From: Thysanoteuthis rhombus
Taxonomy: Eukaryota > Mollusca > Cephalopoda > Oegopsida > Thysanoteuthidae
Direction: 5' to 3'
NCBI GenBank assembly: GCA_963457665.1
Contig: OY735211.1
Span: forward strand, 36,917,485 to 36,981,484
DNA: 64,000 bases
Shown: in pieces, positions 3,596 to 37,229 of the stretch
Numbering within the stretch: the stretch's first letter is position 1
How the letters are laid out: every line of letters starts with the position of its first letter
The notes under the pieces: generated by a model
Seen by the model: only the letters and a program-made list of their open reading frames with translations
What the model was told of the DNA's origin: nothing
The model's database searches: none
Translations under genes and position numbers: made by a program

Positions 3596-3736
3596 ATGAC
3601 AACTCTAAAAGCGTTGTCTTCGGACACTGTACGACTGATTGGTAGCACCCAGGTTATTACCTCTGTCAGTAGTGTAATCAAGGAATTGATTGAAAATTCT
3701 CTAGATGCTGGTGCTACAAGCGTTGATGTCAAGTTG
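3596..3736 (+). CDS. PMS1: PMS1 coding exon 1 (aa 1-47)
   Basis: Starts at ATG and encodes the start of the ATPase with [12 protein letters not shown], which includes the ATP-hydrolysis glutamate E30 and the Mg-binding N34. It ends AAGTTG before a gtttgt donor, phase 0, and continues as LENYGLDR in exon 2. Confidence 0.95.
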
Positions 3737-11634: not shown

Positions 11635-11709
<75 letters not shown>

Positions 11710-14700: not shown

Positions 14701-15947
14701 CCTGATTTCCTTCTGTCAACTAAATTGAGAAGAGATATGTTTTTGGTCGTGTCTGTTAGGCTGTTGGTTTGTTTATTTGTTTAGTTGGTTCATCTGTCCA
14801 GGAGATATCTCCAAAAGTTCTGAATGAATTTCAATGAAATTTAGTTGAAGGATGGGCAATCTGTTAAGATAGAGTTCATAGTAAGTTCATATACATGCAT
14901 TTAAATTTCTAGCAACTGCGATAAATTTTTAAGATCAAATTTTTTTATTATTCTTACATATTCAAATAACATATATGAAATGTATTGTTTCATGAACTGT
15001 TTAGACAATAGTAGGACTTGAAATAATCCAATCAAAATAGAAAAAAACATTGAGCAGGAGGGGAGGTTCCTAATGGAAAAAAATTATTTTACAAATAAGT
15101 ATAATTCATGGGAAGAAAACAAATTTCAAGCATCAAAAATAAGAAATGTGACCCAGCATTTGTTTTACTTACACTCGAGTTGTAGTTTTTTTTGTTTTTT
15201 TTTTCCAGAAATAGAATCAACTAAAGAGTAAAATAAAATGAAAATTGAAGGAATTTACCTCAGAGCCAATAAATAAAAAAGAGATTTCTTTTACTAAATC
15301 TCTAAAAAATTTCTTTGTAGGTTTTAGGCGCCATTTCTTACTTTGGGTTTAAATTGCTTACACATAAAATACCATGTTTCGATAGAAACAAGCCACAATA
15401 AATGGGAACTGGAAAGCACTCAGAAAGTGCATAGTATTGTCAATGTCATCGTCAGGGGAAGTAAGTGTGCATTGATCCATTCCAAAAATTTAATCACTTT
15501 AATCATAACCCGTTGTCCACCCTTTCACGAAATGTCATTGAATCTCATTGAAAACTTTTGGAGATGTTGTTCAAAAAGACCCGATCTTTTGTTGAAATTA
15601 TGTTGTATGGACATACAACTACGATGGGGGGGGTAGTTGTACATGGATCCACCCTAAAATTTTATCACCGTAGCCTATTAATTACTCTTCCATAAAATGA
15701 ATTGAGATCTTTCGGAGATATTGTATGGACACACATGTGCGTAAACATAAATGTGAGAAAAAGTAAAATGAAAAATATCTCACAATCAAAATAAAATTCC
15801 TGGATCTGCCCCCAAATTTCACCAATTTTTCCTCACCCCATAACCTATCCTTCCACAAAATTTAATTTAATGTCATTGAGTACTTTTGGTGATATCTCCA
15901 AAAGATATCTTATGGACTGACAGATGGAGACAGACAGAAAGATGTGA

Positions 15948-16004
<57 letters not shown>

Positions 16005-19000: not shown

Positions 19001-22000
19001 TCTTTTTCTTTCTTTTACATTCCTTTAGATAAACCAATTCCGAATAGTGCTGATAGCTGTTTCCTTCTGGAACTTTCTACGAACACAGTCGATTTGTTCT
19101 CGCAATCAAATTCCTCAAATGATACAAAGGCATCAGCTACTGCTAAAAACCCTGGAATTGATCTTAGCACTGGCAAGGATCTCCTTCCTGAATCTCAAAG
19201 ACCAGAATCAGAAAAGTTGAATGACACGTTTGGCAGTGAACTTTTTGACAATCTGGTTGGGTCTTTTACTCTGGACACACCAGCTGGAGCAGAACCAGCA
19301 TCGGATAAAAAGATAAAAACCCAGTCACAAGGATCAAGCCTTCTTGAAGACAATCTGCGTGCGGCAGATTTTCTCGATTCTTTTCATGAACCTGTGGATG
19401 GAGAAACGTGGAGCCGGGGGAAGTTGAAATCGGCAGAGGGAAATCTTGTACAGGTTTGTATATTTGTGGGATATTTTAGGCATCAACAATGTCCTGTACA
19501 TAAATGTGTGTGTCATCCATATATATTGTGTGTGTATGTACGTATAAAAACCTTTGTGTGTATGTAACATGTACATATATGGATATAAATTGTGTTTTAT
19601 ATAGAAACTTATTTGAAACAATCTCCTGTCATTACACCGTTAACGTATCACTTGCCCTACACAATGTAAATAGAATAAACAATTATAGAAAAAGGGGCTG
19701 CTGCAGGAATCTAACCTGTGACTGGTAGGGTAGCTGCTTCAACATAATGATGCTCTTACCATTGAGCTAAACAGCTGCCAGTAATGCAAAGGCGTAAGTA
19801 ACTGCTTTCACACCAAATTCTCATCTCATTTATTCTCAGTCTATTCGCTTCTTTCAATGTAGCAGTTATGAATTATGAAATGGATATATATAATCTGACA
19901 GAATGATTATAAATTGCATTATATTATATTGAAACTTATTTAAAATGAACTCCTGTCATTACATGGTTAATGTATCGCTTGCCCTAGACAACCCAAATAG
20001 AATAAACAATCAGAGAAAATGGGACTGCTGAAGGAATCGAAATCTGGAAACCTTTTTCAAGTGATCCATATGTAATGATAGGTTATCATTTCAAATAAGT
20101 TTCTATATAATATAACGCAATTCATAATCATTCTTTTGGCTCATATACATCCATTTCTTGATACATATATGTACATATATTGTAAAAATGAACGATTTAT
20201 TTTATTAATGTTTTGCCAAAATAGGCTCCATTAGAATGAGAGGGAATACAAATGTATCAGATTCTTTTTGTTGCCTTTGCACTGCTCCTGTTTGTGGGTG
20301 TCATAAATCCCGTACAATCAATATTATCTCTGTCCACTTTCGAAATCAAAAGACTAAAAAGTTGACATTTCTTTTTCCATTCCCAGCCTGTGCAACTGTT
20401 TGCTCCATCTACTCATCACACTCCTGGAAAACGGCCCCTGTCTCCTACCCGTGATTCGGAACTGGCACCTGTAGCCAAGAAAAAAACTATTGGACCGAAG
20501 GTAAATTGTACATACATTTGTACCTCTTTGATCCGACAACCTTAGGACTTACCAAATAATGCTGGAAGACAGAAATTGACCCCTAAGGGGAACCCCTATG
20601 TAAACATATGGCCCACCCTTAGTATTGTCAGTCTATTTCAGATTCCTATTGCTGTGTTGTTTCTGTTTGCTTATGCTTTAGTTAGTTTTATTGAAAATAA
20701 TTTATGAAATTCATAAAAGAATTAATAAATACATCTCTAATTTTATTCTAAAATATACAATAAAACAAAATATGATGAATAAGCTACTTTTCAAGGCACT
20801 GGAAATAAAGCTACTGAGAGACTGTGAAAAACATGTGTTGTCTAGCTATTGATTGAGGGATAAAATCCTACCTTTTATTCAGAAATCTCATCTTGTGGAG
20901 AAAATTTGACTAGAAGTTTTGCTTTTCACTTCAACATTTATCATTACCTTTTTAAAAAATGTAGATCTGTTGCTGAGCTTGAAGTGTTTAATCATCTATG
21001 GGAATATATGCATTATTCTCAGCGTAAATATTCGGGGGTATGTTATACAATGTGAAGACAAGAAATGATAGTATTTTTCATATAATTTAAGAATAAAACA
21101 TGCGTTTTTTAGTTAAAAAGAATTTTTGTTTTCTTATTTAATGTATGAATGTTGTTCCTGCTCAGAAACGTTGATTTGTCTGATTGTGTTACCATGATGA
21201 CTTCTGAGAGAAACAGACAAAGGGTATTTCTAAATACCAAAGACATGCTGGTGTGCCCACCTAAGCGGGCGAGCCTGAGGATAGTAAAGCCTCCCCTTAT
21301 GTAAATTGTAAAAATATTTGTCAATGGATTTCCTCAATATTTCCATTAATATAATGGGAATTCACCACAATTAATATCAATCACCCCACTGAGGCTGGTT
21401 GGTTGGCTCATACCAATAAAGTAATGAACTACAAATTTTTGTGACAACGGTTATTTTGCATGGAGTTAAAAGAATCAATTTTTCCAATTGAAGACCACCC
21501 TGGGAAGAGGAAAGCAGATTAATTTCAATTTTTGTGCCATTTGATAATACCTTGAACGCTGCTGAGCCAAAAAAAAAAAACACAACAGTACTGAAATCCA
21601 TTCTGGCTCGCTGTGTAATATGGAATCACCTGTCTTACAAGGGTTGCTGAGAATGATATCGCTGGTGTGGCTTGCATTACTTGGAATGAGCCAAGCCCCT
21701 TGGTATTTGCTAGTGTCCTTTCTGTTCAACTTTTTTTCTGAGAATCAGATCCTTCTCCTTTTGGATTGTACACCTGAAGAAAGCTGAAGAATGGATCATC
21801 TGAAATGCGGTTACAACAAAAAGCAATGCTGATAATGAGTTGAGTAATGCGAAGAAACTTTTGGAAGATAAAATTTATTTTCTACTTGTTCATCACTGGA
21901 ACCATGAAGACGGAAAGTTTTAGTTTAGTAAATTCACAAAAAAAAATGGTGTTTCTCAATTTCATTAAAAATTGAAATAATTCTTTTACTTTTTATTTTT

Positions 22001-25000
22001 ACTTTTTTTAGATTAACCTAATGGAAGGGCAGACAACTATGTACGATTTAGTTGAGAGTCAGCCAGTTAAACGTCCTGAAACATCATTTCTCATCTTCTC
22101 CAAGCAGATCAAACCAAAGAGTAAGTAACCAAAGTGTAAGCCCCTTATAAACATACTATAATATATTCAACTGCATGAACATGTGTGGTGAAAATTCTGT
22201 TTAATTGCATTTAGAAGATAAAAGCCTACCTGTACCTCATTGAATTTTCAAAACCTTGAGATTACCCTAATAGAGATTTTTCCTCAAATCCTTGCCACAT
22301 CAAAGATTGAAACTAAAAGCTATGATGAATTGAAGACCATTTCTTTAGAGCCAAGCAGGGCTGGAGACTGTCTCCCCAAAGCCTAGCCAGGTCCCATGTA
22401 TGTGAGAAAAACATGGCTTTGGCTGTGAATACATATGAAAAAGATGACCAGTTAGCAACAAGGGCATAAACTACCAAGTGGAAGCAGGTGGAGTTAGATT
22501 TTGCTTATACCTTACTCTCGGGAGTGGTCATACAAATTGGAATGAAAGAGAAACCCTTATCCCTTGTTCAACCTCTTATCCTATCATCAACAAATATTGA
22601 ACTTTAACCAGAGTGAGGTCCGAGTTTCAATCTTTCTTAACCTTCTCATTAGAATAGGAAGATAACTGACTTGTCCTTTGAACAAATTATACTAAAATAG
22701 GAATCAAAACAGCAAAAGAATATTCATTTGAATAATTTTCTCAATGATGGCAATTCAGAACTTAAGATGAAAAAATTTTTTTTGTTTTAACTCTCAAATT
22801 GTTTTGTTTTTTTACAGTTATGGAAGAATATCCAGATGCAGACTACAAGACCCTATCAGAACTCGTCTTTAAAAGGTGGAAATCCCTGACAGATGAGGAG
22901 AAAGCCGAGTATGAGAATCTTTGTGAGAAAGATGTTAAGAGGTAATTGTTTTTCACTGATAGTGGGCATGTTGATCATAATAAATAAAGTATATATCTCT
23001 GTACGGCTTGCCATCTACATAAAACTCAGGAGAGTAAGTGCCCCCTTCCCAAATTAAGACAAAACGGTGGAAAATTTTTGGCAAATCATGCCTTTTGCCC
23101 TCCATATTGAAAGTTACCATATGCCTATCAATAGTAGTATTAACAATGGAGAAGAGTAAAACTTGACAACTTTGACTTGTTTTCCTAGAATCTCATTTTA
23201 GTTGCTTGTTTACACCCAATAGTATTAATAGACAAGATATTTCTCAGTTATTTCTTGCATGAAGTATCTTCATTATTTGTTTTCATTAGTTTTTCTTTTC
23301 TTTTTTTTTTGTTGGTTCTTTATACCTAGGTGTAGTAGATGTAATAGCCTTGAGTTGTCTGAATTTCTTAGATGAAGCATTGTCATTATGATTAATTTTT
23401 TTACTAGTTTTTATCTAGCTGTAGTATTATAGTCTTGAGTTGTCTGAATTTCTTTTATTTCCAATAGTTGTTGCTTTGTGAAATTCTAGCCAAATCAGTA
23501 GGGTGCTATCCATGTCAGATAGGCGTCCAAAGATTAAAATTAATGTATGCATGATAGTCTTAAGCTGTCAGTATTTTTCTGTTTGTCTATACAATTTCTC
23601 CAAAGGTTCTCCATGGATTTTTATAACATTTTGTGGAAGGGTGGTGCATGGGCTAAGGATGAATTGACTAAAATTTGAGGTACATCCAGGGATTCATTTT
23701 TGATTGAGAGAGATTTATTCATACATCAAGACAATAGTCAGAATTATGGAAAATTTTAAACTCACACTCTCTGCTGCATCATAGCTATGTATGAACTGAT
23801 TTTCATTCAGTTTGTGTTTAGGATTTTACAAATGATTTTCTTTCAGATTTTAGTGAATATGGCATTGGTACAGGTATGTGCTCTGTGTTCTCTCTAGTTG
23901 TATTTAAGCACTTCTTGAAATGTGCAAGGCTCTTACCAGGCATTTAAAAAAAATATATGTTTTTAGAGAAAAAAATCTTCAAAATCAATAAGCAGAGCTT
24001 AGTATGACACCGGGTCAAAAAAAGTGAAATATTGTGAGGAAGGTTGTTACTCTAATTGTCCAAGTGTGAAGAGCCTGGAATTTAGATTTTGGCTAGACCA
24101 CTGACCTCTAGCATGTAACAATCATGAAATTAGTTGGAAAAACAGTTTGTTCATATGTCATCAAATGATTATCATTTTCTGTTATTGAACTCTTTAACCT
24201 TTAGGAGTTTAAATCCTAAGCGGGGGTTTCTCAGACTTTTTTCATTCATGACCCTTTGATGAAATAAAATTGTTTGTGCCCCCTCATTCACTGTTAAGAC
24301 AGCAATAGGTATTGAGACTTGGTCTTTAGCTTTATTATGACAGTAATTAAACATAGAAATTAGCCCCAAATTTGTTGAAAATTGCAGTATACTTATATTC
24401 TATATCAAGTTTTACATTGTTATGAGAAAAAAAATTACCAAAACATAACAGTAACAAAATTTATCATGAAAATATCAATTTTTTGCAATAAGCACCAGAA
24501 GGAGTACAACACTCTTCTAAAATCTTTGATTACACACACACGTATTCATGCAGCAAAATACCAATAAGGACACATTTTCCTCTCAACAACACACCATTAA
24601 GTACACATTCATTTTTTCTCAATAAGCGTCACTAGATTCAACTACATATACAAACCTTTTTCATTTTCACTCCCAATACACAAATGATTTGAACTTGGAA
24701 TTAATTAATTTTCTCCTTTTCTGTCAGTAAAATATAAGAAGTTTAGAACAATAATAACTTTGCATTACCCCCCCCTCCTCTCCAAACCTTGTTATTGGCA
24801 AAATTTGATTGTTTTTCCCATTTGATGTTGACAATGAGAGACAAAAGTCTATTAAAACATGTAATGGAAATAAATATGATCCAGTTTTTGAACTTTCGTA
24901 TTTCCACATTGTCTATTAAATTCACCATTATCATTATGTTGAATAAATCTCATCCATTTCCTCACCATAGATATAAAACAAAAAATACTAGTTACATAAT

Positions 25001-28000
25001 TATTTTAAAAACAATGCAAATCCCAGAGTGGTACCAACCCATACTTTGAGAAGTCCTGGTCTGTAGGACGTTTCTGATTTTGAATAATTTTTTTTACAAA
25101 CTTTTCTGTTGTTTTATTTTTGTAGTTATTATTTCAAATTTTAAGATTGGAAGTTGTTTGCTTGCCTTTTGACCAGGACAAGATCTGTGTTGTTAATTTT
25201 ACATCGTAAACCTTCAATTTCAGTCTTTCAAGGGATATAACCCATTTGGCATCTAAGGGAAGGTAATTCCAGTTCAACGAAATTTTCATGGTATTTCATT
25301 ACAAAGAGAGAAATTATCGTTATACATCTTAGAAAGCATTTTAAGTTCATTTGATGACGGAGGTGACTCAACTCCCATCCCATCCCGACTAAGAATTATA
25401 TTTGAGTTATGCTGACAAAGCAACTGTTAACATGAAAGGAATTAGACAAAATATTTCAGTAATCAATAGACAACATTTTTTTCCACTTCCCCTTAAGAGC
25501 TTAGATACAAGATATCTGAAAGGGCAGCAGCTTGCTGGTTGAAAGGGTTAAGTGAATGTACATATTTTAAATTTTGAACAGTGAAATTTGGCATGCTTTG
25601 TATAATAATGTTTTTTTTTGTGTTATTTTTTAATTACTAGTATGACTGCTGCAGACTTGAACTCAACTACTCCTATTCTGACTGTAGATGATTACTGCAA
25701 CTTTTGTATTGTATATATGATAAATGATTTTATAAATTATAAAACAAATATATTATTGGTATAAATGTGTTTATTAATAAGAATGAAATAAGCCATTGTA
25801 TATTAGTTACACAAATATTCATCATCATCAGTCTGATATCGTCTGTTGTTGCACATAGACCTTCCCCAGGATTCACCATATCTTTCTATCGTGGGCATTG
25901 CCAATATTTTCTCAACCTGTCCAATTCGTCTCGCCATCTCATATTCTACAGGCCTCGGTCCCACATTTGATCTCTGGGGATCCAAGATGTGAGTCATCAT
26001 GTCTATCAGTTGTCTGCCATTCTTGCAACATGGCTAGCCCATTGCCATTTGAGTTTCCTAATGGTTTCTATGATATCTCGGACTCTTGTTTTTCCCCTCA
26101 TATACTGTGCTGTCTTGTGGTGTCTCCATGGGATATTGAATATGATTCTCTCATGTGTACGTTGCATGGTTCTCAGTTTGTGGGACAGTCTCTTGGCTAG
26201 GTTCTATGTTTTAGTTCCATAGATGACTATCAGGAAGATGCATTGGTTGTATACTCTTCTTTTAAGGACCAATGGGATTTTCTTGTTCTTGAAGGTTGAG
26301 TTTGCTCTACTGAAGGTGTAAAACTTGTTAGTTTGGTTCACTTGTTAAGAGAACTGCTTACTGATTGCATGGTCATGATTTCAAATCACGGTAGGGAAAT
26401 GTTTATTTTTTTTTATCGGTTTGGTTTAATGTGACAGGATAGACAAACAGTGAACAGTTTACTCCTCTTAATTTGGTGGGAATTGTTATTTAATATTGGG
26501 GAGGGGGGCAAAGCCAACTCGAGACTTTAACTGGAGTGTAACGAAAAAACTTACATTAAAGAATACTGTGGTTTATATATTCAAATCTCGCTTAGTTTTT
26601 AGATGAGACTTGTTCCTTCTTTCATCTATGTCACCCATACCCGCCCTGCAGTTATCTTGGTTTGGTTATAATGCAGTTGGCTTCCTTGGACCCCGAAACC
26701 TGTGTTATAATGCGGGGGGGGGGGGTGCACCTGAATTAAATTTTCATAAAGTAAAATTGTTTTTAAGTACGAATACCAATAGTTATGATTGATGTATCCT
26801 TTATTTAATGTTTTGGGCTTGTTATTGTTATCTGAAAGACTCTGTCCCAAAATGATCACAATAAGCAGCTTCCTAAGTATCTATTCAGTTTACGCAGAAT
26901 TCTTTGTTAGAATGGGGAATAATAATCCAGATTACTTCCTTCCTTTCTTCCTCAATCACTGATTTATTTTCTTTTTTAGATATGAAGAGCAAATGCATTT
27001 GGCGAAAGAAAGAGCAGCTAATAAAATAATGAATTCTACACCTAAAGTTTCTACGGTAAGTTTTATCTTTTCAGGATAATGTTTACTTAGCTTTGTTTGG
27101 TATATGGCCATACAGTAATATATCTACTCAATCATAGATACATTCCCCGTAAAAACTTAAAACCAATTAATTGTGTAGGGTGACAATTTCAGTCATTGCA
27201 TTTCTACAGCTCAGCAAAAATTTCGTCATGTCATTGTTAGCTTGCTAAAGTACCTCTAACCTGGCAAGTGGTCATAACCCAAAACAAAACTGTCTCTCTC
27301 GATATTAACAATAGTAGATGAGAATTATAATTTCTTCTTAACATTTTTTTTTTTTTTTTCCAGAGAGTAAAACCAGGAAATACGCCTGGCCGAGAAAAAC
27401 TTCTGAAGACATGCAAGTTGACTATACAGGAGCCCACAAAACGACGATACTTAAAAGTACAAGTGATACCATTCAGTATGAACCAACTGAAGAAAAAACT
27501 ATCTCATGAATACAACTCCAGGTTTGACCTGTGAATTCTTTTTCTCTATTTATTATATGTTATGTAACTTGTGATGCAATTGGTAGGATCTATCAAACAG
27601 ATCTGTCAGAACTGATGATTATAAGTAATTGATACAGTGACACAACCAGATGCGTTAATGCTCATTGTTTAGAAATTCCAGATGCGTTAATGCTCATCGT
27701 TTAGAAATTCCAGATGTGTTAATGCTTGTCATCTAAAAATTCCAGATGCGTTATTGCTCGTCACTTAGAAATTCCAGATGCGTTAATGCTTGTCATCTAA
27801 AAATTCCAGATGCGTTAATGTTCATCATTTAGAAATTCCAGATGCGTTAATGCTCGTCATCTAAAAATTCCAGATGCGTTAATGCTCGTCACATAGAAAT
27901 TCCAGATGCGTTAATGCTTGTCATCTAAAAATTCCAGATGCGTTAATGCTCATCATTTAGAAATTCCAGATGCGTTAATCCTCATCATTTAAAAATTTTT

Positions 28001-29657
28001 ATGACTACATTTTTACCTTTATCTTATCTTATTCATTTTTTATCACAACTTTTACTTGGACCTGATTTCCCTCTGGCAATGAGTAAATAGCATTGGGGGG
28101 GGGTGTTCAAATCCCACCAAGAGCTTATCGTTTATCTCACTGCCGGAGGAATATTGGTCTGAGTAGAAGAAAAAAAAAATAGTCATAAAGATTTTATTAA
28201 AAATGATTTATAATACTTAATTTTATGAAAATAAATAATATAATAATAAAAATGTATTGAAATGTAGGTATATTTTTTATTTGATTCTTTTTTGACTACT
28301 CATGTTCATCTGAATTTTTTCATTAAGTTGTGATAAAAAAAACAACTAAAAAAACCGAGATGGAAGTAAATTGTCAAATCAATAATAGAGTACAGTACTT
28401 TATCTAAAAAAATGAAATAATTATTTTATTCTTTTTATTGACAGTCAGTGTAGCTGGACTTCTGCTAATCATCTTGTGCCTGTTGGTTATCTGCCATCTC
28501 GTGACTCCTGGGTCTGCCATCAAGGAGTCCGACTTATGCTGTTGAATCCCCACAGAGTCGATGAAGTCTTGATATACCAACGTCTCATGGAATCCTTTCA
28601 AGTTAATGCAGAGCCTCTCGAAGACCCAATCATCCTCAATGAGAAGTACTTTGAGTCATTTTCATAAATTTCATTTATCTTTCATCCTATTTTGTTGCTT
28701 TTTTTGATATCACAATGCTTGAGTTCTTTTACGTTCTATGACTGTTAAGGAAGCATATGGATTGCGAGTTCAATTCTTGTTGGGTACCGTTATAATTATA
28801 TATTGTATTTCTAGCCTTGAAGAGGTTATTTTTGTCACGAAATAAGTCAGGAAAATTTACCCTGCATCCTATGTGCCGAAAGTTACTTCTTTCATAGGCC
28901 TATCCTAACCCTGGAAGAAGGTTATCTTCACTCCTTCATATAACCTCTGAAGCGTATAAATTATATTTAGTATAAAATAGTGAATGAACAAAAGTACTAT
29001 AAATAATTAGAAAAAAAAAAAAAAGATCAATAATTGGAAAATTTATTTCCTATATTGATATATTATGGTAGATAAGCCTGTGGACTAGTAGTAATTTAGA
29101 TAACTGTTACCCCACAAATGGCCTGTCTGACCAGCCAGCTTAGTGAGCTACAGATTCCTCTCTCTTTACTCGTCAGTGTGTTAATGTGTGCTCCTAATCA
29201 CATTTTTTGAGTTACAAACTTGAAAATTTGCATGAGTATACTTCTAGGCACCATCTAAATTTTTTTTTCTTTTCTGTTGGTCTCTATAGTCATTTTTGAC
29301 CAACAATGCCCAAACTTTGTGCTGGTATTTTTAATGATAATTTTAGGTATAAGATGTAGTTTCTTAGATGATCAATATTATTACTGGTAACCAGGACTAA
29401 TTGTATTCCAAACTTGATTCTTATAATACTAACATCTTATATTCTGCATATTTGATGATGTAATACTCTTAAGTTGTTTTGAGATTCTGAGATGAGTATT
29501 TTCATCATTACAAATATTTTTGACCAATTTTCTTTCATGTGCTTTTGTAACAAAATAGGCTGAAAGGCAGCTGTGAAAGTAATCCGCTTGAAACATCAGT
29601 GGGATTGAACTTAGAATCAAACACAAGTTGACCAGTATAATTAGAATTTGTACAAGG

Positions 29658-29713
<56 letters not shown>

Positions 29714-31625
29714 TGTGTTTGTGTTTTAAACTGGTGTGCCTTCATACTGGTTGTATTTATGGTTATATTAAGTGGTGTACATTAGCATCTTAATGTGCAA
29801 CAGTGTGTTCTTTGTTTAATCATAAAAGTAGACATCTGAAAATTGATATTTAAACCCGATACTTTTTTCTATATTTTGATAATTTCATTCAGCATTTTAT
29901 TTTCCATATCGATATTTAAAATCAACATAGAAATATTTCATGTTAAATTTCTATTCATGACACGGAACATATACATTTTTCTATTTCATTTGTTGCTTGC
30001 TTGTTTGATTAATTGGAAACAGTTGTCTATTTCAATTTTAGATTTTTTCTTGTCCTACTGACTTGTTGATGTCGGGTATGCATAAAACCATTACATTAAA
30101 TAGTTGGTTCTTGTATAACTGGTATACATTAAGAAGATTACCATCTTAATAAGATTTCTCAACAAAATATAGCGATTTAAAGTATTCTCATTTATTTTGC
30201 TTGTTTTCCCCGTGTGGTGGAAACATGACAACAGTTTTTAAATAATTTCGCAATTGCATTGAATATGAAAAATATCAAATACATTGTTTCTCCAGTTTTT
30301 CTTGTTCATGTTCGACCAGAATGAACCCAAATTTTTTATGCATTCGCAAGAAAAATCAGTATGGTGTATTACTCTATAATTAGACTTTGATATTTATCTC
30401 GCTTGACAAATGTTACGGACTCAAAATATAGACATACATGTAGCATTTCATGTACATAGATTTTTGTTGTTTTCAGATTGCCTGGAGGGGAAAGAATTTG
30501 GAAGACGTTAATGTCTTTGAAACGTGAAGATCATGCAACATCTTCCCATCAGGTTGTAAGTGACCAACGTCTGCTGGCCAATGGTTTCACTGTGGCAATT
30601 TACAAAGGTCAGTGCAGGATTTTTTTTTTTTTCTCTTTGAATTTACACAAGTTTTGCTTAATATCCATCGATGATATCTGTATTTCTATAATTCAATGAT
30701 TTGCTTTTAGGCTTGCGTTGGTATGGATAGAGATATATATGGGTTTGCTTGGTAGCTGAGATAGTTGTATATTTTCCCACTGGAAAAAATAGTTGCTTAT
30801 AGTGCCTGGTTAAAATAAAAATGCATAATGTGCTAAAAATGTTATTTATTCTTCTTCTATCTTCAATGTACAAAATTACTCTGATTTTTCTTTTTTTTCA
30901 ATACATGCTGATGTGATAACAATTAAAAGTTATATTTTTTAGTGAAATTTCTTGAAAACATGGCTGTGATAATTCGCAGTTCAGTCTTGGATAATTCATA
31001 GCAATTTTTGGGAGTTTTGTAACGTACCACAGAAAAAGCATCATAGAAAATACGCTGTGCAGTATAAACAAAACTTGAAAAGTTTGGGAAATCATAAATG
31101 CATCATGATAATATTTGTGTTGTTTATTTATTTGTGCAGACGTATAAACTCTGTTTATATGTGGATGAAACACTTATGAATCAATTGAATGGTATTTTAG
31201 ACAGTCATTTTTTTTTGCTAATTGTGTTGTTAAAAATTTACTCATGTTTTTTTCTTAGTAGATGAAGGTAGGTCAGCTAAAATTATTTGTGGATTTTTGT
31301 ACATGTGGCCCCTGGTGCCCATAACCATCCGCGAATATCAAGTTATAACTGTACATGTTCTTAATGCTCTCTGTTGACAAAAAACAGACTTTTGGGGTCA
31401 CCTGATAGATAGGTAGAAATGTATGTAAATATCTGTCTATTGATACATAAATGAATGAATCAATAAGTTTGCTACCTGATGTAGTTATAGCTGAATTTTA
31501 ATCTGAAATTTTCTCTGTATAATGTTTGATCTATATTATTAATATTCACAGGAAGAAGATTGTTAAAAGATATTTGTATCAAATTGATTCATTCTTTATC
31601 TGAACTTAGTGATTATCTATGTCCT

Positions 31626-31658
<33 letters not shown>

Positions 31659-32833
31659 TTGATTAAAGAGGCAATTTGAAAAGCCGAAGTAGATCTTAAA
31701 AATCAGATATCTTTATATAATTTAATATGTTTTGTTTGTCAGAGGTGATTTCTTTAGAAAATGTGTCAGAATATAGAATACTGTCTATTTATCAGATGAA
31801 TAATAATCGAAATCCATACAATGGTCATATATAATTCTCCGGGGTATGTTCTCATTCCTACACCTGTCAAATAAATGTTCTGTTCAACATTCCTGGAATG
31901 TTACAGAACTGACACCTGAGGTAGGCTGGAGTGTAGAATGGTCGAGATGTTTATGATAAAGACAGCAGGTGTGAAGGAACTGGTCTGAAATCCACTGCAT
32001 AATCGTAACTAAATCTCCTATTAGTTTTATCATGTTTCTTGTCTTCTTTGCAGAAAAGCCCAACTTGTCATCAGAAGTGCCTCAGGTAGAAATGACTGGT
32101 CTCACTACCCATGTGCCCATGTATGGAGTAAAGGACTTGCATGAACTTTTGGAGAATATTGCTACGATAGGACCATCCACGTCTTTAATGCAGTGTCGTC
32201 CTCTGAAGATTGTCAATTACTTGAAGGTATTATGTTTGATCTGTGCAATTGATATTCTCCAGTGAATTAGGGTCATTGACAAGGGAGGAGATTATGTTAA
32301 AAAATGAGTTTTTTTTTTTTTCCCAATCATCAGACTAAGAACTTACTGATATATTTATTTACTAATCTATCCATAACATCAAAAAATGAATTAATTTGTA
32401 ATTGCGATGTACTTATAGAAAATATGGAAAATATTTTGTTGCTCTGCATTTTTTTTGTTTACGTTCCATCAGATTGAAGCCAGATTTTTTATGGATTTTA
32501 TAGATAAAAAATAAGGGAGACTACTCTGTAATTAGCATAGATATCTCCCTTGTCGAATGTTACAGACAAAAAATATGTATGTCATTTTGTATGAGTAAAT
32601 AAAATAAAAAAAAATTTTTTTTTTTTCTGCTTTAGTCAGAAGCTGTCCGCATGGCACGGAGCTCACCATCTTTCTCATCCAGGCATGATGTAACTGACCT
32701 GCTCGAGAGAATTGCAAAAACACGCAAGTTGAATTGCCTTCATGACAGACCTTTCCTGCATGAAATTTACAACTTCAACAACCTGCCCTTATCACAGGAG
32801 TCTCTGATGGAGAGTCAACAGTCTGTCGTCTGA
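3596..32833 (+). CDS. PMS1: PMS1, MutL-homologue DNA mismatch repair protein (17 coding exons, 1016 aa)
   Basis: PMS1 pairs with MLH1 in the nucleus (MutL-beta in human); its repair role is auxiliary. Exons: 3596-3736, 5250-5409, 5811-5936, 12551-12831, 13593-13715, 14071-14211, 16133-16502, 19029-19453, 20387-20500, 22012-22120, 22818-22941, 26980-27055, 27364-27521, 28445-28645, 30477-30607, 32054-32226, 32636-32833; all phases join. The N-terminal GHKL ATPase shows [12 protein letters not shown] (catalytic E30, Mg-binding N34), DNGKGI (59-64), GFRGEAL (94-100), GTT (143-145) and the FKNLPVR lid. The S5-like domain has FVYVNKRPV and [13 protein letters not shown] divergent linker (about 340-640) keeps WSRG (575-578). 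An HMG box lies at about 645-712, the hallmark of PMS1 against PMS2 and MLH1. The C-terminal dimerisation domain has NPHRVDE (817-823) where PMS2 carries its DQHA endonuclease motif, so no nuclease is expected, as in human PMS1. Human PMS1 is 932 aa; the extra length is linker. The ATG was chosen because [15 protein letters not shown] aligns with the human start. Confidence 0.97.
3737..5249 (+). other. PMS1 intron 1
   Basis: Mostly AT-rich. At about 4377-4460 an ORF piece reads [18 protein letters not shown], like the acidic/serine-rich N terminus of piggyBac-type transposases. At 4730-4751 there is a GC-rich near-palindrome (accgccggccggcttgccgg). Possibly a dead DNA element; evidence weak. 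Confidence 0.5.
5250..5409 (+). CDS. PMS1: PMS1 coding exon 2 (aa 48-100)
   Basis: The acceptor is a T-run followed by cag. It encodes [17 protein letters not shown] and ends inside GFRGEAL at a gtgaag donor, phase 1. Contains GHKL motifs II and III. Confidence 0.95.
5635..5720 (+). repeat. Short dispersed repeat in PMS1 intron 2
   Basis: ttgttgtctttatcaacatt, ctctactctctggc and ttggtactattatgcaa match 17905-17985 and, more weakly, 61365-61450 (ttctaccttccgacc, catgttgttac). Confidence 0.5.
5811..5936 (+). CDS. PMS1: PMS1 coding exon 3 (aa 101-142)
   Basis: The acceptor is ttaatttcag. Encodes [19 protein letters not shown] and the following beta strands, equivalent to human GSICCIAEVLITTRTA. 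It ends PQPE plus one base at a gtatat donor, phase 1. Confidence 0.95.
5937..6840 (+). repeat. PMS1 intron 3, first part: imperfect tandem copies
   Basis: Two pairs of related segments: accattgataatccctttct (6094) with accactgatagtccctttct (6217), and cttgaagtgtttattctatg (6290) with cttgaagtgtttattttaag (6620), each followed by gattctgcctgtt. Unassigned repeats; no gene. Confidence 0.55.
6841..8390 (+). other. PMS1 intron 3, middle: unassigned repeat-like sequence
   Basis: An ORF at 7465-7671 encodes an acidic tail ([18 protein letters not shown]) with no recognised domain. It may be a transposase N-terminal scrap. Otherwise AT-rich with nothing recognised. Confidence 0.4.
8575..8860 (+). 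repeat. Possible LTR-like fossil in PMS1 intron 3
   Basis: A sharply different C/T- and G-rich block with tataaa at 8755-8760 and aataaa at 8803-8808 about 45 bp apart, a layout seen in solo LTRs. No flanking internal domain and no target duplication seen. Old and incomplete if real. Confidence 0.2.
9150..9265. repeat. Second copy of the 2870-3205 repeat tail
   Basis: gtctgtaaaacagtaaggcc, gtactggagcac and aaacaaacgtacat match 3095-3165. Confidence 0.6.
9266..10439 (+). other. PMS1 intron 3: nothing recognised
   Basis: AT-rich sequence with two related stretches (atatccatatatgaaaacat near 9940 and atccagtctatatatgaaaa near 10260) but no gene or known element. Confidence 0.5.
10440..10810 (+). 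mobile_element. tRNA-like SINE units in PMS1 intron 3 (tail plus next unit)
   Basis: The tail of one unit (gttgaaagaaacaaataaag to cctttgcattac) runs into the head of a second (gactgtttagctggcaagag; B-box gttcgattcc at 10628-10637) and its body up to about 10800. Same family as 19.6, 39.1, 55.9 and 62.0 kb. Confidence 0.75.
10811..11630 (+). other. PMS1 intron 3: nothing recognised
   Basis: AT-rich; short minus-strand ORFs are low-complexity. Confidence 0.5.
11631..11990. repeat. Microsatellite-bracketed block in PMS1 intron 3
   Basis: (CA)n(TA)n at 11635-11706, then about 200 bp of more GC-rich unique sequence, then (TG/TA/CA) mixtures at 11905-11990. Long ORFs here are IYIYIY or HTHTH translations of the microsatellites. 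Confidence 0.8.
11995..12475 (+). repeat. Unidentified dispersed repeat, copy 1
   Basis: Shares with 44785-45480 and 52440-53010 the blocks aaaacaaaacagttatacta, gcagtgttgatcaaacatga, atagggtattatcataatgt and caatgagggatcaataagt. It ends at a (TA)n tract 50 bp before PMS1 exon 4. Confidence 0.75.
12551..12831 (+). CDS. PMS1: PMS1 coding exon 4 (aa 143-236)
   Basis: The acceptor is tgctgctag. Begins with the GTT motif (GHKL motif IV) and [11 protein letters not shown], then the transducer-domain start. It ends KEDPQ at a gtatac donor, phase 0. A (TA)n tract lies 50 bp upstream of the acceptor and a 35-bp minisatellite starts 30 bp downstream of the donor. Confidence 0.95.
12863..13187. repeat. 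Minisatellite, 35-bp unit, about 9 copies (PMS1 intron 4)
   Basis: cttgatc or its variants recur at 12871, 12906, 12941, 12976, 13012, 13048, 13083, 13118 and 13153. The unit is close to tttctggctcagcattctgg plus cttgatcctttttga. Confidence 0.9.
13593..13715 (+). CDS. PMS1: PMS1 coding exon 5 (aa 237-277), GC donor
   Basis: Encodes VSIEMFVPK through [16 protein letters not shown], matching human FIFINSRPVHQKDILK. The exon ends AAAAG followed by GCAAGT, a GC donor that otherwise matches the 5' splice consensus. Phase 0. Confidence 0.92.
14071..14211 (+). CDS. PMS1: PMS1 coding exon 6 (aa 278-324)
   Basis: The acceptor is tcttgtgaag. Encodes [18 protein letters not shown] through [21 protein letters not shown], including the conserved VDVN-PxK motif of MutL proteins, whose lysine contacts the nucleotide. 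The donor is gtaggg, phase 0. Confidence 0.95.
14790..14880 (+). repeat. Dispersed ~175-bp repeat unit, sense (PMS1 intron 6)
   Basis: gatatctccaaaagttctga and gaaatttagttgaaggatgg match the 950-1300 units. Reversed units follow at 15480-15935. Confidence 0.65.
15085..15310 (+). repeat. Dispersed repeat shared with 51255-51430
   Basis: gaaaacaaatttcaagcatc, aaaaataagaaatgtgaccc, cactcgagttgtag match 51275-51350. No known family recognised. Confidence 0.6.
15480..15935 (-). repeat. Dispersed ~175-bp repeat, about three units, antisense (PMS1 intron 6)
   Basis: Signatures at 15545-15570, 15700-15725 and 15875-15905. Inverted relative to 14790-14880, repeating the fold-back layout seen at 1-2.8 kb. 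Confidence 0.65.
15951..16002. repeat. (TA)n microsatellite
   Basis: 52 bp of uninterrupted TA, 130 bp before PMS1 exon 7. Confidence 0.95.
16133..16502 (+). CDS. PMS1: PMS1 coding exon 7 (aa 325-447)
   Basis: The acceptor is tttttctgcag. Encodes [16 protein letters not shown], the last helix of the N-terminal domain, then a polar Ser/Thr/Asn-rich linker. It ends PPPSP plus one base at a consensus gtaagt donor, phase 1. Confidence 0.93.
16640..17060 (+). mobile_element. Mariner transposase 3' fragment in PMS1 intron 7
   Basis: Encodes [11 protein letters not shown] followed by [20 protein letters not shown] and [11 protein letters not shown], recognisable as the C-terminal end of a Mos1-type mariner transposase (LAPCDFxLFPxLK). 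Stops and frameshifts interrupt it and the aspartate region is altered, so it is inactive. The downstream part (gatactctccagacagatc) is shared with the copy at 54.8 kb. Confidence 0.75.
17061..17639 (+). other. PMS1 intron 7: nothing firm
   Basis: May include the 3' side of the mariner remnant; a G-run lies at 17402-17410. No gene. Confidence 0.45.
17640..17770 (-). mobile_element. tRNA-like SINE, second family, PMS1 intron 7
   Basis: Minus strand reads ggagcaatggttagcacgct then gtagtgagtttggtacttgc and tgggtgtccaagag, the head of a tRNA-derived repeat with A- and B-box spacing. The same family is at 17.98, 18.88 and 50.51 kb. Confidence 0.6.
17985..18240 (-). mobile_element. tRNA-like SINE, second family, longer copy
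   Basis: Minus strand: ggaacaatgggtagcaagcc, then gtagtgagttcaatcctcac with tgggtgcc, then ttgacttgtgccagactaag and a T/A-rich tail. B-box gttcaatcc is clear. Confidence 0.65.
18241..18879 (+). other. PMS1 intron 7: nothing recognised
   Basis: Unique-looking AT-rich sequence without ORFs or known repeats. Confidence 0.5.
18880..18962 (-). mobile_element. tRNA-like SINE head fragment before PMS1 exon 8
   Basis: Holds gctactcaactgtaatgatg, acaagacaaacttgctgacc, the family head in antisense. The duplicated exon-8 segment near 35599 begins inside this same head, so the duplication breakpoint falls in or near the SINE. Confidence 0.55.
19029..19453 (+). CDS. PMS1: PMS1 coding exon 8 (aa 448-589)
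   Basis: The acceptor is cattcctttag. Linker exon from [11 protein letters not shown] to [15 protein letters not shown]; the WSRG motif (575-578) is shared with the human PMS1 linker. Donor gtttgt, phase 0. A damaged second copy of this exon lies at 36199-36432. Confidence 0.93.
19590..20045 (-). mobile_element. Two head-to-tail tRNA-like SINE units in PMS1 intron 8
   Basis: On the minus strand an A-box-like tagctcaatggtaagagc and B-box-like ggttagattcc sit in the unit ending at 19590. A second unit body (19880-20045), starting gattccttcagcagtccc, runs into it through cctttgcattactggcagct. Equivalent points in the two units are about 325 bp apart, so they are tandem copies of one repeat family. 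Confidence 0.75.
20046..20165 (+). mobile_element. Inverted partial SINE unit (tail half)
   Basis: Carries the same body as 19590-20045 (atttcaaataagtttctata, acgcaattcataatcattc) but on the opposite strand, so the array turns around at about 20046. Confidence 0.65.
20387..20500 (+). CDS. PMS1: PMS1 coding exon 9 (aa 590-627)
   Basis: The acceptor is cattcccag. Encodes [20 protein letters not shown] and a basic stretch, AKKKTIGPK, which could act as a nuclear-localisation patch (inference). Donor gtaaat, phase 0. Confidence 0.9.
20501..22011 (+). other. PMS1 intron 9: nothing recognised
   Basis: AT-rich sequence; short minus-strand ORFs at 21377-21729 have no recognisable domain. Confidence 0.5.
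22012..22120 (+). CDS. PMS1: PMS1 coding exon 10 (aa 628-663), start of HMG box
   Basis: Encodes [20 protein letters not shown] then [16 protein letters not shown], the N-terminal arm and helix I of an HMG box. YDL and the K-[RK]-P entry to the box are shared with human PMS1. Donor gtaagt, phase 1. Confidence 0.95.
22121..22817 (+). other. PMS1 intron 10: nothing recognised
   Basis: No repeats or ORFs of note seen. Confidence 0.5.
22818..22941 (+). CDS. PMS1: PMS1 coding exon 11 (aa 664-704), core of HMG box
   Basis: The acceptor is tttttttacag. Encodes [17 protein letters not shown] then [18 protein letters not shown], helices II and III of the HMG box with the signature W and Y. Donor gtaatt, phase 2. 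Confidence 0.95.
23290..23480 (+). repeat. Dispersed ~110-bp repeat (PMS1 intron 11)
   Basis: gagttgtctgaatttcttag and gagttgtctgaatttctttt about 85-90 bp apart, same family as 58080-58440 and a weaker copy at 29440-29560. Confidence 0.6.
23580..23905 (+). repeat. Dispersed ~175-bp repeat unit and terminus (PMS1 intron 11)
   Basis: tttctccaaaggttctccat, gaagggtggtgcatgggcta and a terminus ggtatgtgctctgtgttctc, tctagttg, parallel to 950-1590. Confidence 0.6.
24220..25058. mobile_element. hAT-like nonautonomous element in PMS1 intron 11
   Basis: The left end reads cgggggtttctcagactttt; the right end, reverse-complemented, reads caggacttctcaaagtatgg. This is the common hAT terminal form CAGGGGTTCTCAAACTTT. 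Internally it has gaccctttgatgaa and gtgccccctcattc, also typical of such elements. About 840 bp with no transposase ORF. I could not see a clean 8-bp target duplication. Confidence 0.55.
25060..25814 (+). other. PMS1 intron 11: nothing recognised
   Basis: AT-rich sequence between the hAT-like element and the LINE fragment. Confidence 0.5.
25815..26330 (-). mobile_element. Antisense LINE 3' fragment (same family) in PMS1 intron 11
   Basis: Clearly related along most of its length to 35630-36096, including the ATC-rich edge and the minus-strand [12 protein letters not shown] region. It extends about 60 bp further toward the LINE 5' side. The ORF is interrupted, so the copy is dead. Confidence 0.75.
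26330..26410 (+). repeat. tRNA-like repeat head in PMS1 intron 11
   Basis: tttggttcacttgttaagag and gtcatgatttcaaatcacgg resemble A- and B-boxes of a degraded tRNA-derived repeat, immediately after the LINE fragment. Confidence 0.35.
26411..26979 (+). other. PMS1 intron 11, 3' part: nothing firm
   Basis: Contains ggttataatgcagttggctt and gtgttataatgcgggggg, a doubled word that may be a MITE end, and a G-run at 26711-26720. Confidence 0.4.
26980..27055 (+). CDS. PMS1: PMS1 coding exon 12 (aa 705-730)
   Basis: The acceptor is cttttttag. The 76-bp exon encodes [19 protein letters not shown], the end of the HMG box third helix and a basic tail, then STPKVST. Donor gtaagt, phase 0. Confidence 0.92.
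27364..27521 (+). CDS. PMS1: PMS1 coding exon 13 (aa 731-782)
   Basis: A T-run of about 18 precedes ccag. Encodes [20 protein letters not shown] then [19 protein letters not shown], equivalent to human IKMVQIPFSMKNLKINF. It ends NS plus two bases at a gtttga donor, phase 2. The exact acceptor (27363 or 27365) is slightly uncertain. Confidence 0.92.
27646..27997. repeat. Minisatellite, 32-bp unit, 11 copies (PMS1 intron 13)
   Basis: Eleven contiguous units starting ccagatgcgttaatgctc; checked unit starts are exactly 32 bp apart. Units ending tagaaatt and taaaaatt alternate over most of the array, giving a 64-bp higher-order period. Confidence 0.97.
28445..28645 (+). CDS. PMS1: PMS1 coding exon 14 (aa 783-849), weak donor
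   Basis: Encodes [16 protein letters not shown] through [19 protein letters not shown] to ILNE, matching human MLLNPYRVEEALLFKRLL. The best-aligned donor is AA|GTACTT at 28646; a second candidate GA|GTCATT at 28655 keeps phase 2 and adds three residues. Reading through gives a TAA at 28665-28667. Confidence 0.85.
28646..30299 (+). other. PMS1 intron 14, main part
   Basis: Holds an in-frame read-through to TAA at 28665, a weak copy of the 23.3-kb repeat near 29440-29560, and a (TG)n(TA)n tract at 29659-29708. Nothing else recognised. Confidence 0.55.
30300..30476 (+). repeat. Dispersed repeat at the 3' end of PMS1 intron 14
   Basis: Related along its length to 32455-32635: both have ttgttCAtGTTC-type starts, attttttatg, actctataattag or actctgtaattag, gaatgttacagac-like and end at the acceptor of the next exon. 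Confidence 0.65.
30477..30607 (+). CDS. PMS1: PMS1 coding exon 15 (aa 850-893)
   Basis: The acceptor is ttgttttcag. Encodes [18 protein letters not shown] through [18 protein letters not shown], equivalent to human LSDPRLTANGFKIKLIPG. Donor gtcagt, phase 1. Confidence 0.93.
30608..32053 (+). other. PMS1 intron 15: nothing recognised
   Basis: AT-rich, with a short interrupted (TA)n at 31627-31660. No gene. Confidence 0.5.
32054..32226 (+). CDS. PMS1: PMS1 coding exon 16 (aa 894-951)
   Basis: The acceptor is cttctttgcag. Encodes [29 protein letters not shown] and [11 protein letters not shown], matching human LPFYGVADLKEIL and CRPRKVISYLE. Donor gtatta, phase 0. Confidence 0.95.
32455..32635 (+). 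repeat. Dispersed repeat at the 3' end of PMS1 intron 16
   Basis: Second copy of the 30300-30476 repeat; contains both agggaga and tctccct, so it has a small internal inverted repeat, and runs into the T-tract of the exon 17 acceptor. Confidence 0.65.
32636..32833 (+). CDS. PMS1: PMS1 terminal coding exon 17 (aa 952-1016)
   Basis: The acceptor is tctgctttag. Encodes [15 protein letters not shown], a helix, then [18 protein letters not shown], where human has CVHGRPFFHHLTYLPETT; the usual HGRP is HDRP here. It ends SQQSVV and TGA, about 17 residues past the human C terminus. Confidence 0.95.
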   Translation, partial: SEAVRMARSSPSFSSRHDVTDLLERIAKTRKLNCLHDRPFLHEIYNFNNLPLSQESLMESQQSVV

Positions 32834-33220: not shown

Positions 33221-35598
33221 ACTTGGTTTAAATGTTTGAAATTTTATTCATTTTTAATGTGGCTATGGAATTCCACTGATTTTCCTTTGGAATATTAAGA
33301 TAAACAACCTCTAAAATGTCAAAGAAAATAAAAATAAATCCTTGAGGAAAAATACATTTAACGTGTTCACTGCTAAGTATATTTTTCAGTGCTGTCACTC
33401 TTGTGCTGTATTTCTTTTTCTTCTAAAAGAATTGATGCAAATAGAAAGTTTTCATTGCATGTTTAAAACGGTTTTACTTTCATACAAAACAATTAATGTA
33501 CAACAGATTATTTAACGGGCCTGGCTGCTGCATGGTCAAACTCTACTCCTACTTTTATTTTGATTAAAGATGATTACTGCATTATACATGCAACAAATAA
33601 AAAATTTATAAAATATGTTTTTTATTTAAAGTTATCTATTTATTAGAATGATATAAGCCCTTACGTATTCGTGACATAATTTTCGCACATATGTAAGACT
33701 TGTCAATTCAGTTCAGTTGGCAGGAGGCCAGCCTACAAATCAGTTGTTATTCAAAATCACATTTAAAGAATGTTGATTTTTATTTCTCCTAAATTTTTTA
33801 TGGTAGAAAAACAAAGTAAACTCAAGACTTAGATGAGAGTTTGTAAATGAATTAAATATTCATGTAAGTGTGTTAAAAATGTAATATTTCTATAATTTGA
33901 ATGAATATGGAATATCTTACATGCAGTATATTTGTAACTAGCCTAACTCCAGATTACTGTAATATTATTCACTCAAATATCATCATTACAATTCTTAGAT
34001 TAGAAAAGAGATTATCATGAAAATTCATGCTAGATGTTCTTAGATGAACATCTTTGTTTAATACCAACTCATTTCTCTGTTTCAACTCATGATGGCTGGA
34101 GGATGAAAGCACTTCAGCCATGCTACTGGATGTGAACTAGTTTGTTGATATTTAACATTTTAGCAAATTTAGTATTCTTGACTTCTTTTGGTTACAGTTA
34201 CCAATTAATCTCTGAAAAAAATTCAAAGATTTATTTGAATTTTTAAGAGACAGGGGTAGTGTCTATTCAAATGGTGCATGTCAGGAAGGAGGCTAGACTT
34301 TATGATGTGTGGGATAGCTAGTCCTAATTATCATGTAAAACAATTTTCCGTCTGTTGTTTGGAACTACAACTTCGAAGTACTTTGGTTATGTCTCTTCAG
34401 TGTGGATCTTCCATATCTAACTTTGGATATATCCTGAGTGAAAGTCAAGGGCGATAACTCGGAAAAGAATCTATAATCTTGATTTATTTTCTCAAAATGC
34501 TGCCCCAAATAACTTCCAACTTGTGTGCTGACTGATTTATCTGACTGAATGTAAATTTTGTACAATGGCCAGCTGTCGAGTGATCAAGGTGTAAACAGAT
34601 TTCTTCCATTGTAGTTAGAAAAGAAAAAACTGAACTCGTGTCATTGGAAGAGTTCATTGTATTATATGGTGGGTAGGTTGATTTTTTTTTTCCCTTCAAA
34701 ATAGTTATTTTTCAGCTGAGAGCATGGTAATCACAGAGAAATAGAAAATCATTATTGTATTTCACGAATATATTAAAATTCCTATGATACTGACCATGAT
34801 GGGAAAGAGATATTTTTATTTGTAAGAGTGGAAGAGTCCATTGTTACGGGCAAATAGATAAAATGTTAGTTAATTATATAAGCAGATCATACCCTCCATT
34901 CAAATTCTGTTAGTGATAGGATAGATAACTCCTATATCAATTATGCGGAGTTAATTCCCTTTACATTACAAAAACATGATTTTCCTGAAATTTTACTCAG
35001 AGTTATCTCCCTTACATCTCGACAGGAACGCATTGAAATCGTAAAATGTGATAGATTTGTAATCAGAATGATTTTTTTTCTAAAATCCAAGAGATGAATG
35101 AAAGACGTTGGGGAAGATTTGGAAATATTACTATATAGACTACATGCGATACAGAATATTGATATCCCTAATTTTGGTGAAGAAAATCTCTAATTTCGCT
35201 TAAATCTTTCGTGAATATCGAAGTGTTATTTTTCTTTACTTGAGTACAGAATTGCATATGAAGACGTGATATCATTTTTTTTCTTAAAAACGGTTAATAT
35301 TTCTCTTATTGCTTTTTTCTAAAAATTGAAATATTGTTAATTATGTAAGTTTTCTTTTGTAAAACATAACAAAAAAAAAAGGAGCTCAAACCATGATCTG
35401 CGAATGACGGGAATTTCTGTCATTGCTGTTCTATGACTATCACAATTCTATTTAGTGATTGATGGCTATTCAATTCTATCTGTGATTCAGGACTTTTATC
35501 TTGCAGTGGATAAGTTATTACTCTCTACCACTTTTTGGCAGTTAATGTGTAAACCAAGTGAGAACTCCATCACAATTTTGCAATGTAGAAAAACTCAC
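33221..35598. other. Intergenic, no gene
   Basis: AT-rich; several scattered agttatctccctt-type words (for example 35001-35013) common in molluscan repeats. Minus-strand ORFs at 34365-34699 are unrecognised. Confidence 0.6.
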
Positions 35599-35629
35599 TA
35601 CTCAACTGTAATAATCTGCAAGACAAACT

Positions 35630-36096
35630 TCATCATCATCATCATCATCACCAGTCTTTTAACGTCCGTCGTTGGACATAGACCTTCTCCAGGATTTACC
35701 ACACTTTTCTATCATGGGCATCGCAGAGCCTGTACTTCCTGAACTTGTCTAGCTCGTCTCTCCAGCTAATATTCTGCCGGACCCGGTTGCGCATGTGATC
35801 TCGGGAGATCCATGTCGTGAGTCCTGATGTCCATCGGTTGTCTGCCATTCTTGCAACATGGCCTGACCACCGTCATTTGAGATTTTTAATAGATTCTATG
35901 ATGTCCCTGACTCTTGTCTTTTCCCGGGTGTACTATGCTTCCTTGTGGTCTCTCCATGTGAGGCCCAGCATAATTCTTTCATGTGCACGTTGCATGGTTC
36001 TCAATTTACGGGTCTGTCTCTTGGTTAGGTTCCATGTTTCAGCTCCATAAGTGACTATTGGGAGGATCCATTGGTTATACACCCTTCTCTTTAAAC
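35630..36096 (-). mobile_element. Antisense LINE 3' fragment (RTE-like) inserted in the duplicated segment
   Basis: On the minus strand it reads [20 protein letters not shown] then WNLTKRQTRKLRTMQRAHER, the typical C-terminal end of a non-LTR reverse transcriptase ORF, with a 3' tail of GAT trinucleotides. It is 5'-truncated. The motif AAACTT occurs at both edges (about 35624-35629 and 36091-36096) and once in the parental locus, so it looks like a 6-bp target-site duplication. Clade is uncertain. Confidence 0.8.
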
Positions 36097-36198
36097 TTGC
36101 TAACCAATAAATCATAATGAAGCACTCGTTTAATTTTCGGATATCTAAACTTTTTGGCTAACTTCGCAATTCTTTTTCTTTCTTTTACATTCCTTTAG
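36097..36198 (+). repeat. Duplicated PMS1 intron-7 flank
   Basis: Matches 18938-19028, the intron sequence directly before exon 8, including aaactttttggc and the pyrimidine-rich acceptor ttctttcttttacattcc. It proves the exon-8 copy came from genomic DNA, not from a spliced mRNA. Confidence 0.9.
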
Positions 36199-36432
36199 AG
36201 AAACCAATTCCGAATTGTGCTGATAGCTGTTTCCTTCTGGAACTTTCTACAAACTCAGTTGACTTGTTCTCGCAATCGAATTCCTCAAATGATACAAAGG
36301 TATCAACTGCTGCCAAAAACCCCTGGAATTGATCTTAGCACGGGAAAGGATCTCCTTCCTGAATCTCTAAGATCGGAATCAGAAAAGCTGAATGACTCAC
36401 TTGGCAGTGAACTTATTGACGATCTGAGTACT
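36199..36432 (+). pseudogene. PMS1: Broken partial copy of PMS1 exon 8
   Basis: From the acceptor tcctttag onward this is a close copy of the first half of PMS1 exon 8 (19029 onward): it reads [16 protein letters not shown] and [18 protein letters not shown] in the same frame. An extra C (four C at 36320-36323, three in the parent at 19150-19152) shifts the frame, and similarity stops near 36430 before the parent's donor. The upstream 100 bp also match the parent intron. It lies outside the gene and has no partner exons, so it is a duplicated dead exon. Confidence 0.92.
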
Positions 36433-36847
36433 CTCATGCATGGATGATATATTTAACTGAGATAAGAAAAACAAAATAAAAACAACAACAACAAAAAAAC
36501 ACCAGGCCAAGTCATTGTTGGTTGTTAGTAATGAGAAAGTTAATATGGGCGTGTGGAGGCCAAGGATCAAATGGAGTAGATGATATGTGTGTGATTTGGA
36601 TCTAGGGAAGTGTGGATCGATATGTGATCTCTTTCCTGAATTTTATCAATAGAGTGAGTACAGTTGGTGTACTTGTCAATGTGTGGTTTATTCTTTCTCT
36701 CAGGTGCGTGACTTATTTGTTTGTTTTCCGTATGTTTTCTTCTCAAAGGGTCAGTGTGTACAACCAGTGTGTGTGTGTGCGTGTGCGTGTGTGTGTGCGT
36801 GTGTGACCAATGATCAGTATGTTTGTCTATGCGTGTTTTCTCCTTTC

Positions 36848-36884
<37 letters not shown>

Positions 36885-37229
36885 TCCTAAAGAATCAGAG
36901 TATATTTGCACGTGGGGTTGACCAGTATGCCTGTGCGTGTACTTTTTTCAACGGAGATTAGTCCGTCTTTATGTATGTGTGAGTGTGTGATTAGTATGTT
37001 TGTCTGTCCATGTGCGTTCTCCTCTTGTATATCGTCTGTATTTCTTGCGTTTGCACATGGTTGTTTTCTATTTTGATTTGGTTTATTTCAAAATCTGTGC
37101 ATTTAATATTGTCGCTAGTTGGAAGTGTCCATGTCTTTGTGATATCATTTTGGATTCGGATATAAAAGCAGCTTCGATGCATTTACGTGTTGATTATAGG
37201 TATTTCTACGTCCGACTAAGATGTTCAGG
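36433..37229. repeat. Intergenic with (GT)n tracts
   Basis: (GT)n at 36766-36811 and 36851-36881 explain the Val/Cys-rich ORFs. The right part may belong to the Penelope-like remnant. Confidence 0.6.

Follow-up and report, generated by a model that had tools for sequence, protein, structure and literature searches.

What is a piece of a PMS1 exon, with the end of the preceding intron still attached, doing beyond the end of its gene, and how did it come to lie there? The question is raised by a stretch of 64,000 nucleotides from Thysanoteuthis rhombus (contig OY735211.1), which was analysed at its full length and is called the window below. We find that the piece is a DNA-level exon ghost, a genomic fossil of an ordinary and familiar sort. 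Very probably it is a small interspersed segmental duplication that arose as a repair patch, drifted without coding function and was later split by a LINE.

The host gene

Judged from its sequence, the host gene is likely PMS1 (MutL family, MLH2 type), given that a MutL ATPase N-terminus and an HMG box are both found.

3596..32833, plus strand: PMS1, running from the exon for the N-terminal MutL ATPase to the stop that closes the last coding frame; limits approximate for this unassembled gene

The MutL model TIGR00585 matches three exon frames (E 7.5e-13, 1.5e-20 and 1.5e-12), all three short of the whole-protein cut-off, as is inevitable for single exons, and HMG_box matches one exon frame with 28.5 bits against a cut-off of 25.4 (E 2.2e-6). 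The combination is what we take to mark PMS1, the HMG box being the feature that sets it apart from PMS2 and MLH1. No NCBIfam match was found for the frame that includes exon 8, and the three C-terminal exon frames tested have no Pfam match; the latter presumably belong to PMS1, judging by the vertebrate protein. The last coding frame ends with a stop at 32831-32833. Among ten further frames searched against Pfam, nine of them downstream of PMS1, none scored above the cut-off; one weak zinc-finger match (E 0.0057) fell below it.

The window also holds two short tandem arrays with units of about 32 and 35 bp (27646-27997 and 12865-13185), as well as a 217-bp near-tandem duplication (54-270/331-548, 82%). 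On the minus strand at 37148-37757, frames resemble a decayed Penelope-like element in their GIY-YIG-like and LPFLDTL-type reverse-transcriptase words; frames 37148-37369 and 37501-37734 have no supporting Pfam match.

Extent of the source segment and of its copy

18901..19255, plus strand: source segment, 355 bp of PMS1, the end of intron 7 and most of exon 8
18901-19028, plus strand: intron 7 part of the source including the acceptor, 128 bp
19029-19255, plus strand: exon 8 part of the source, its first 227 bp (exon number as in the earlier note)
35598-36426, plus strand: copy overall, same orientation as the source, split by a LINE insert
35598..35630, plus strand: left-hand 33 bp of the copy, from intron 7, ending in AAACTT, the left target-site duplication of the LINE
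36099..36198, plus strand: remainder of the intron stretch of the copy, with a polypyrimidine tract and an AG acceptor that look intact
36199..36426, plus strand: exon portion of the copy, 228 bases matching the first 227 of exon 8, stopping before the donor

An earlier note on this DNA, made from the sequence alone, held that the acceptor flank of exon 8 is duplicated outside the gene in the same orientation, and both blastn and pairwise alignment bear this out. Comparison of 18001-21000 with 35001-38000 gives a main match on the same strand with 296 of 335 columns identical (88%, 8 gap columns, E 4e-113), and a left piece of 33 bp, 18901-18933 against 35598-35630, identical at 30 of 33 positions. 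The copy lies 16.7 kb downstream of its source. Pairwise, 34 of 354 aligned bases differ (23 transitions and 11 transversions, source and copy taken together), among them 12 of the 127 aligned bases of the intron part. Four internal indels separate the two sequences, of 5, 1 and 1 bases in the intron part and one extra C in the exon part. About 1 kb was aligned on either side of the duplicated segment, and similarity there is at shuffle level, both beyond the left edge (score 21 against a mean of 20.98 in 100 shuffles) and beyond the right (19 against a shuffle mean of 19.53).

The earlier note had placed the copy at 36097..36432. Its right-hand part is indeed there; the true span is 35598-36426, interrupted by the LINE. 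The estimate of about 230 bp of exon was close, the exact figure being 227 bp, and the copy does stop short of the donor, ending at 36426 after those 227 exon bases. With 128 bp of intron present in the copy, the view that the intron was carried along in a DNA-level duplication is likewise upheld. The distance of 3.2 kb from the PMS1 polyadenylation signal becomes about 2.4 kb if it is counted from the first AATAAA/ATTAAA beyond the last coding frame, at 33197.

The LINE insert and the order of events

35631..36092, minus strand: LINE insert, 462 bp from the 3' end of a high-copy LINE, truncated on its 5' side and tailed by (GAT)n
36093..36098, plus strand: right target-site duplication AAACTT, 6 bp
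25819..26265, minus strand: LINE fragment, same or related, inside PMS1, 77.5% identical to the insert

The sequence that splits the copy is a 5'-truncated fragment of a non-LTR retrotransposon (LINE), as its dispersed family, its simple-repeat 3' tail and its target-site duplication indicate. 5' truncation and target-site duplication are general features of LINEs. Exact AAACTT words flank the insert at 35625-35630 and 36093-36098, and the source has AAACTT once at this place; the chance of an exact 6-mer duplication at such a place is about 0.0006. A genome search with the insert returned 8011 first-look candidates, and of the 40 that were scored, the 39 other than the insert itself are 91-94% identical to it. 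Twenty places, the best of these 40 scored among 8011, were compared: 15 of 19 relatives continue past the 5' end of the insert with common sequence, hence the insert is a 5'-truncated copy, and the other four share a shorter common stretch or none. At the opposite end, (CAT)n adjoins differing flanks. The mean distance of the 20 best-scoring places to the insert is 0.078, a figure biased low from which no age was drawn. A minus-strand frame of the insert, 35936-36091, reads ETWNLTKRQTRKLRTMQRAHERIMLGLTWRDH, which we take to be typical of RTE-like LINEs; this 52-aa frame has no match in Pfam or PDB.

The LINE breaks a sequence that is continuous in the source, and it does so with a target-site duplication of its own. 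Therefore the duplication came first and the LINE second, and since the LINE is later than the duplication, it is not its cause. The nested LINE with its target-site duplication thus offers a worked example of how events can be ordered and an adjacent retroelement cleared as their cause.

This order also bears on the suggestion that similarity begins in a tRNA-like SINE head (at 18.9 kb and 35.6 kb) and that a SINE-associated rearrangement produced the duplication. The supposed head consists of intron 7 sequence, forms the left end of the duplicated segment and belongs to it; similarity extends far past it, through the rest of the intron part and into exon 8. The repeat that does adjoin is the LINE fragment, inserted later with its own target-site duplication. 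A tRNA-like match does exist in the window, the only Rfam match at the gathering threshold (19695-19776, minus strand, within the next intron), yet it lies 440 bp beyond the right end of the source segment and no such match is found at any edge of source or copy; when 18801-19260 and 35401-36500 were scanned permissively, no tRNA was listed. Involvement of a SINE is therefore hardly credible.

Separately, a dispersed repeat family occurs in both orientations at 19614-20042, 39239-39465, 55817-56011 and 61930-62091. With a member over the tRNA match at 19695-19776 (minus), it is probably a tRNA-derived SINE.

Copy number and flanks in the genome

The earlier note could compare only copies within its own stretch, so that the closeness of source and copy is by itself no evidence for a local mechanism. 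In the 2.73-Gb assembly, a 336-bp query covering most of the copy finds two places only (2 of 2 candidates), the copy itself at 100% and the source at 88%. Searched as protein, the exon frame gives three matches among 13 scored candidates, all at the same two loci. Two places genome-wide mean a single local event rather than a repeat family.

In the genome search, no second full copy of the right flank (36428-36760) appears. Of its 20 further matches, self excluded, 19 are short, to a dispersed repeat, and start at or after 36561; the remaining one covers 39 bases at 36467-36505. In the left flank (35298-35597) there is an old dispersed repeat of 75-83% identity, whose listed matches, from 40 scored of 980 candidates, reach no further than 35557 and so leave 40 bp to the edge of the copy. 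Within these flank searches, neither edge of the copy coincides with a repeat boundary.

Is the copy, then, what deletions left of a larger tandem or near-tandem duplication of PMS1? Its orientation and neighbourhood, both those of the source, would agree with such an origin, and a larger duplication trimmed by deletions on both sides would look identical. However, only one of 15 exon-bearing frames, that of exon 8, has a match downstream of PMS1 in the window, similarity ends abruptly on both sides for the 1 kb aligned, and the source locus is absent from the genomic matches of either flank, among those listed. We consider a larger duplication unlikely. One 16-nt word of the copy (36349-36364) recurs with one mismatch at 36626-36641; the surroundings do not match by eye, and we take the recurrence as chance.

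State of the exon copy

As the earlier note had seen, an extra C in the copy (run 36320-36323, against CCC in the source) shifts the reading frame, which then meets a TGA at 36330-36332. Mismatches in the exon part fall at codon positions 1, 2 and 3 in proportions of 10/75, 2/76 and 10/76, and amount, with two doubly changed codons split by hand, to 10 synonymous changes over 50.7 sites and 11 nonsynonymous changes over 174.3 sites. Intron and synonymous sites, taken together as the neutral class, changed at 22 of about 178. At that rate, about 10.8 nonsynonymous changes are expected if the copy evolves neutrally and its source is fully constrained, and 11 are observed. The pattern thus fits neutral drift of the copy next to a gene under constraint. 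The rate of change was lower at nonsynonymous than at neutral sites (11/174 against 22/178, Fisher p 0.067); constraint on the source alone would suffice for this contrast, although some past constraint on the copy may also have contributed. We infer that the exon copy is probably dead, without coding function.

Could the copy nevertheless be a used exon, the alternative terminal exon of PMS1 read-through transcripts? Source and copy agree at 31 consecutive bases across the acceptor, which is intact, and an AATAAA lies at 36475, 49 bases past the edge of the copy. Yet a run of this length is expected at this divergence (the longest anywhere in the alignment is 34 bases, permutation p 0.71), the reading frame is broken, and the stretch from PMS1 to the copy contains seven AATAAA/ATTAAA words. 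We rate use as an exon as highly improbable. It is equally improbable that the copied acceptor still functions and that some PMS1 read-through transcripts end in it as a decoy exon; if they did, the decoy would truncate the PMS1 protein or trigger decay. Constraint on the copied acceptor was considered in its own right and rejected, the identical run being no longer than chance. For annotation the locus is a warning: the acceptor looks intact, and gene prediction could mistake the exon-like stretch behind it, outside PMS1, for an exon.

A date was also attempted. In Octopus vulgaris a JC distance of 0.09 is given for 25 million years (PMC13282606), and this borrowed rate, which may not be that of the host, would yield roughly 14-19 million years; the figure was not adopted as a date.

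Edges of the copy and proposed origin

By the marks of a processed pseudogene (introns removed, poly(A), target-site duplication) the copy is none: it keeps its intron, its edges, examined for a target-site duplication of the whole copy, match strictly at one base, and no poly(A) or microsatellite tail is found at them. The word TACTC is common to the surroundings of both edges at chance level (p 0.14 to 0.52). Capture by a transposable element was rejected, as the inverted repeats in 34600-37600 are four pairs of 12-17 nt with none at the edges.

These edges also weigh on the idea that an unspliced PMS1 pre-mRNA was retroposed by a LINE, in the manner of class 1 templated sequence insertions. 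The intron is kept, as it is in nascent RNA, and the LINE family is abundant in this genome, with its 8011 first-look candidates. Against this stand the lack of tail and target-site duplication just described, and the A-rich stretch nearest to the right edge begins about 35-40 bp beyond it. Class 1 insertions, as described in PMC5110952, carry poly(A) and duplicate 5 bp or more of their target site, and the copy shows neither feature. Retroposition appears very unlikely.

What the copy does show are the marks of an interspersed segmental duplication: low copy number, a non-adjacent site and unspliced genomic sequence. A one-off unspliced copy, with sharp edges outside detected repeats and without tail or target-site duplication, points to break repair or template switching. 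We therefore favour a small segmental duplication laid down by repair. A 355-bp stretch of PMS1 would have been copied once, in the same orientation, to a site 16.7 kb downstream, most likely as a patch when a break or a stalled replication fork was repaired, by template switching or end joining. The copy would then have drifted without coding function, and a frameshift and three intron indels now lie between it and its source. Later, a 5'-truncated LINE inserted in its intron part, duplicating AAACTT.

Comparison with known systems

The proposed patch has a counterpart in the class 2 templated sequence insertions (PMC5110952), which likewise bring in sequence from elsewhere without target-site duplication or poly(A); the likeness is drawn from these features. 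At their junctions, class 2 insertions are marked by microhomology, a small deletion or added bases. As described there, class 2 insertions are human polymorphisms with distant donors, thought by the authors to come from reverse-transcribed RNA.

The nested insert has a microsatellite tail, as do cephalopod LINEs of the RTE type (PMC9115989, PMC13282606). Octopus is reported to have RTE elements whose 3' ends are microsatellites, and microsatellites are called common in RTE (PMC9115989). By its tail and by the motif in its minus-strand frame, the insert may be RTE-like.

In size and placement the copy resembles the small segmental duplications of Drosophila, being under 500 bp, non-tandem and of low copy number. 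In that survey, 83.4% of detected duplications are under 500 bp, and interspersed duplications are more abundant than tandem ones (PMC6380325). The Drosophila duplications, as presented there, are young polymorphisms, whereas the PMS1 copy and its source have diverged at about 10% of sites, and a LINE is nested in the copy.

The pseudogenic exons (PsiE) of Morais and Harrison 2009 (PMC2718932), disabled copies of one exon close to the parent gene, are a recognised class in mammals. Compared with PsiE as surveyed there in four mammals, the PMS1 exon copy is cut short ahead of the donor and is found outside its gene. It is, like them, a single duplicated exon near its parent, disabled by a frameshift and a stop.
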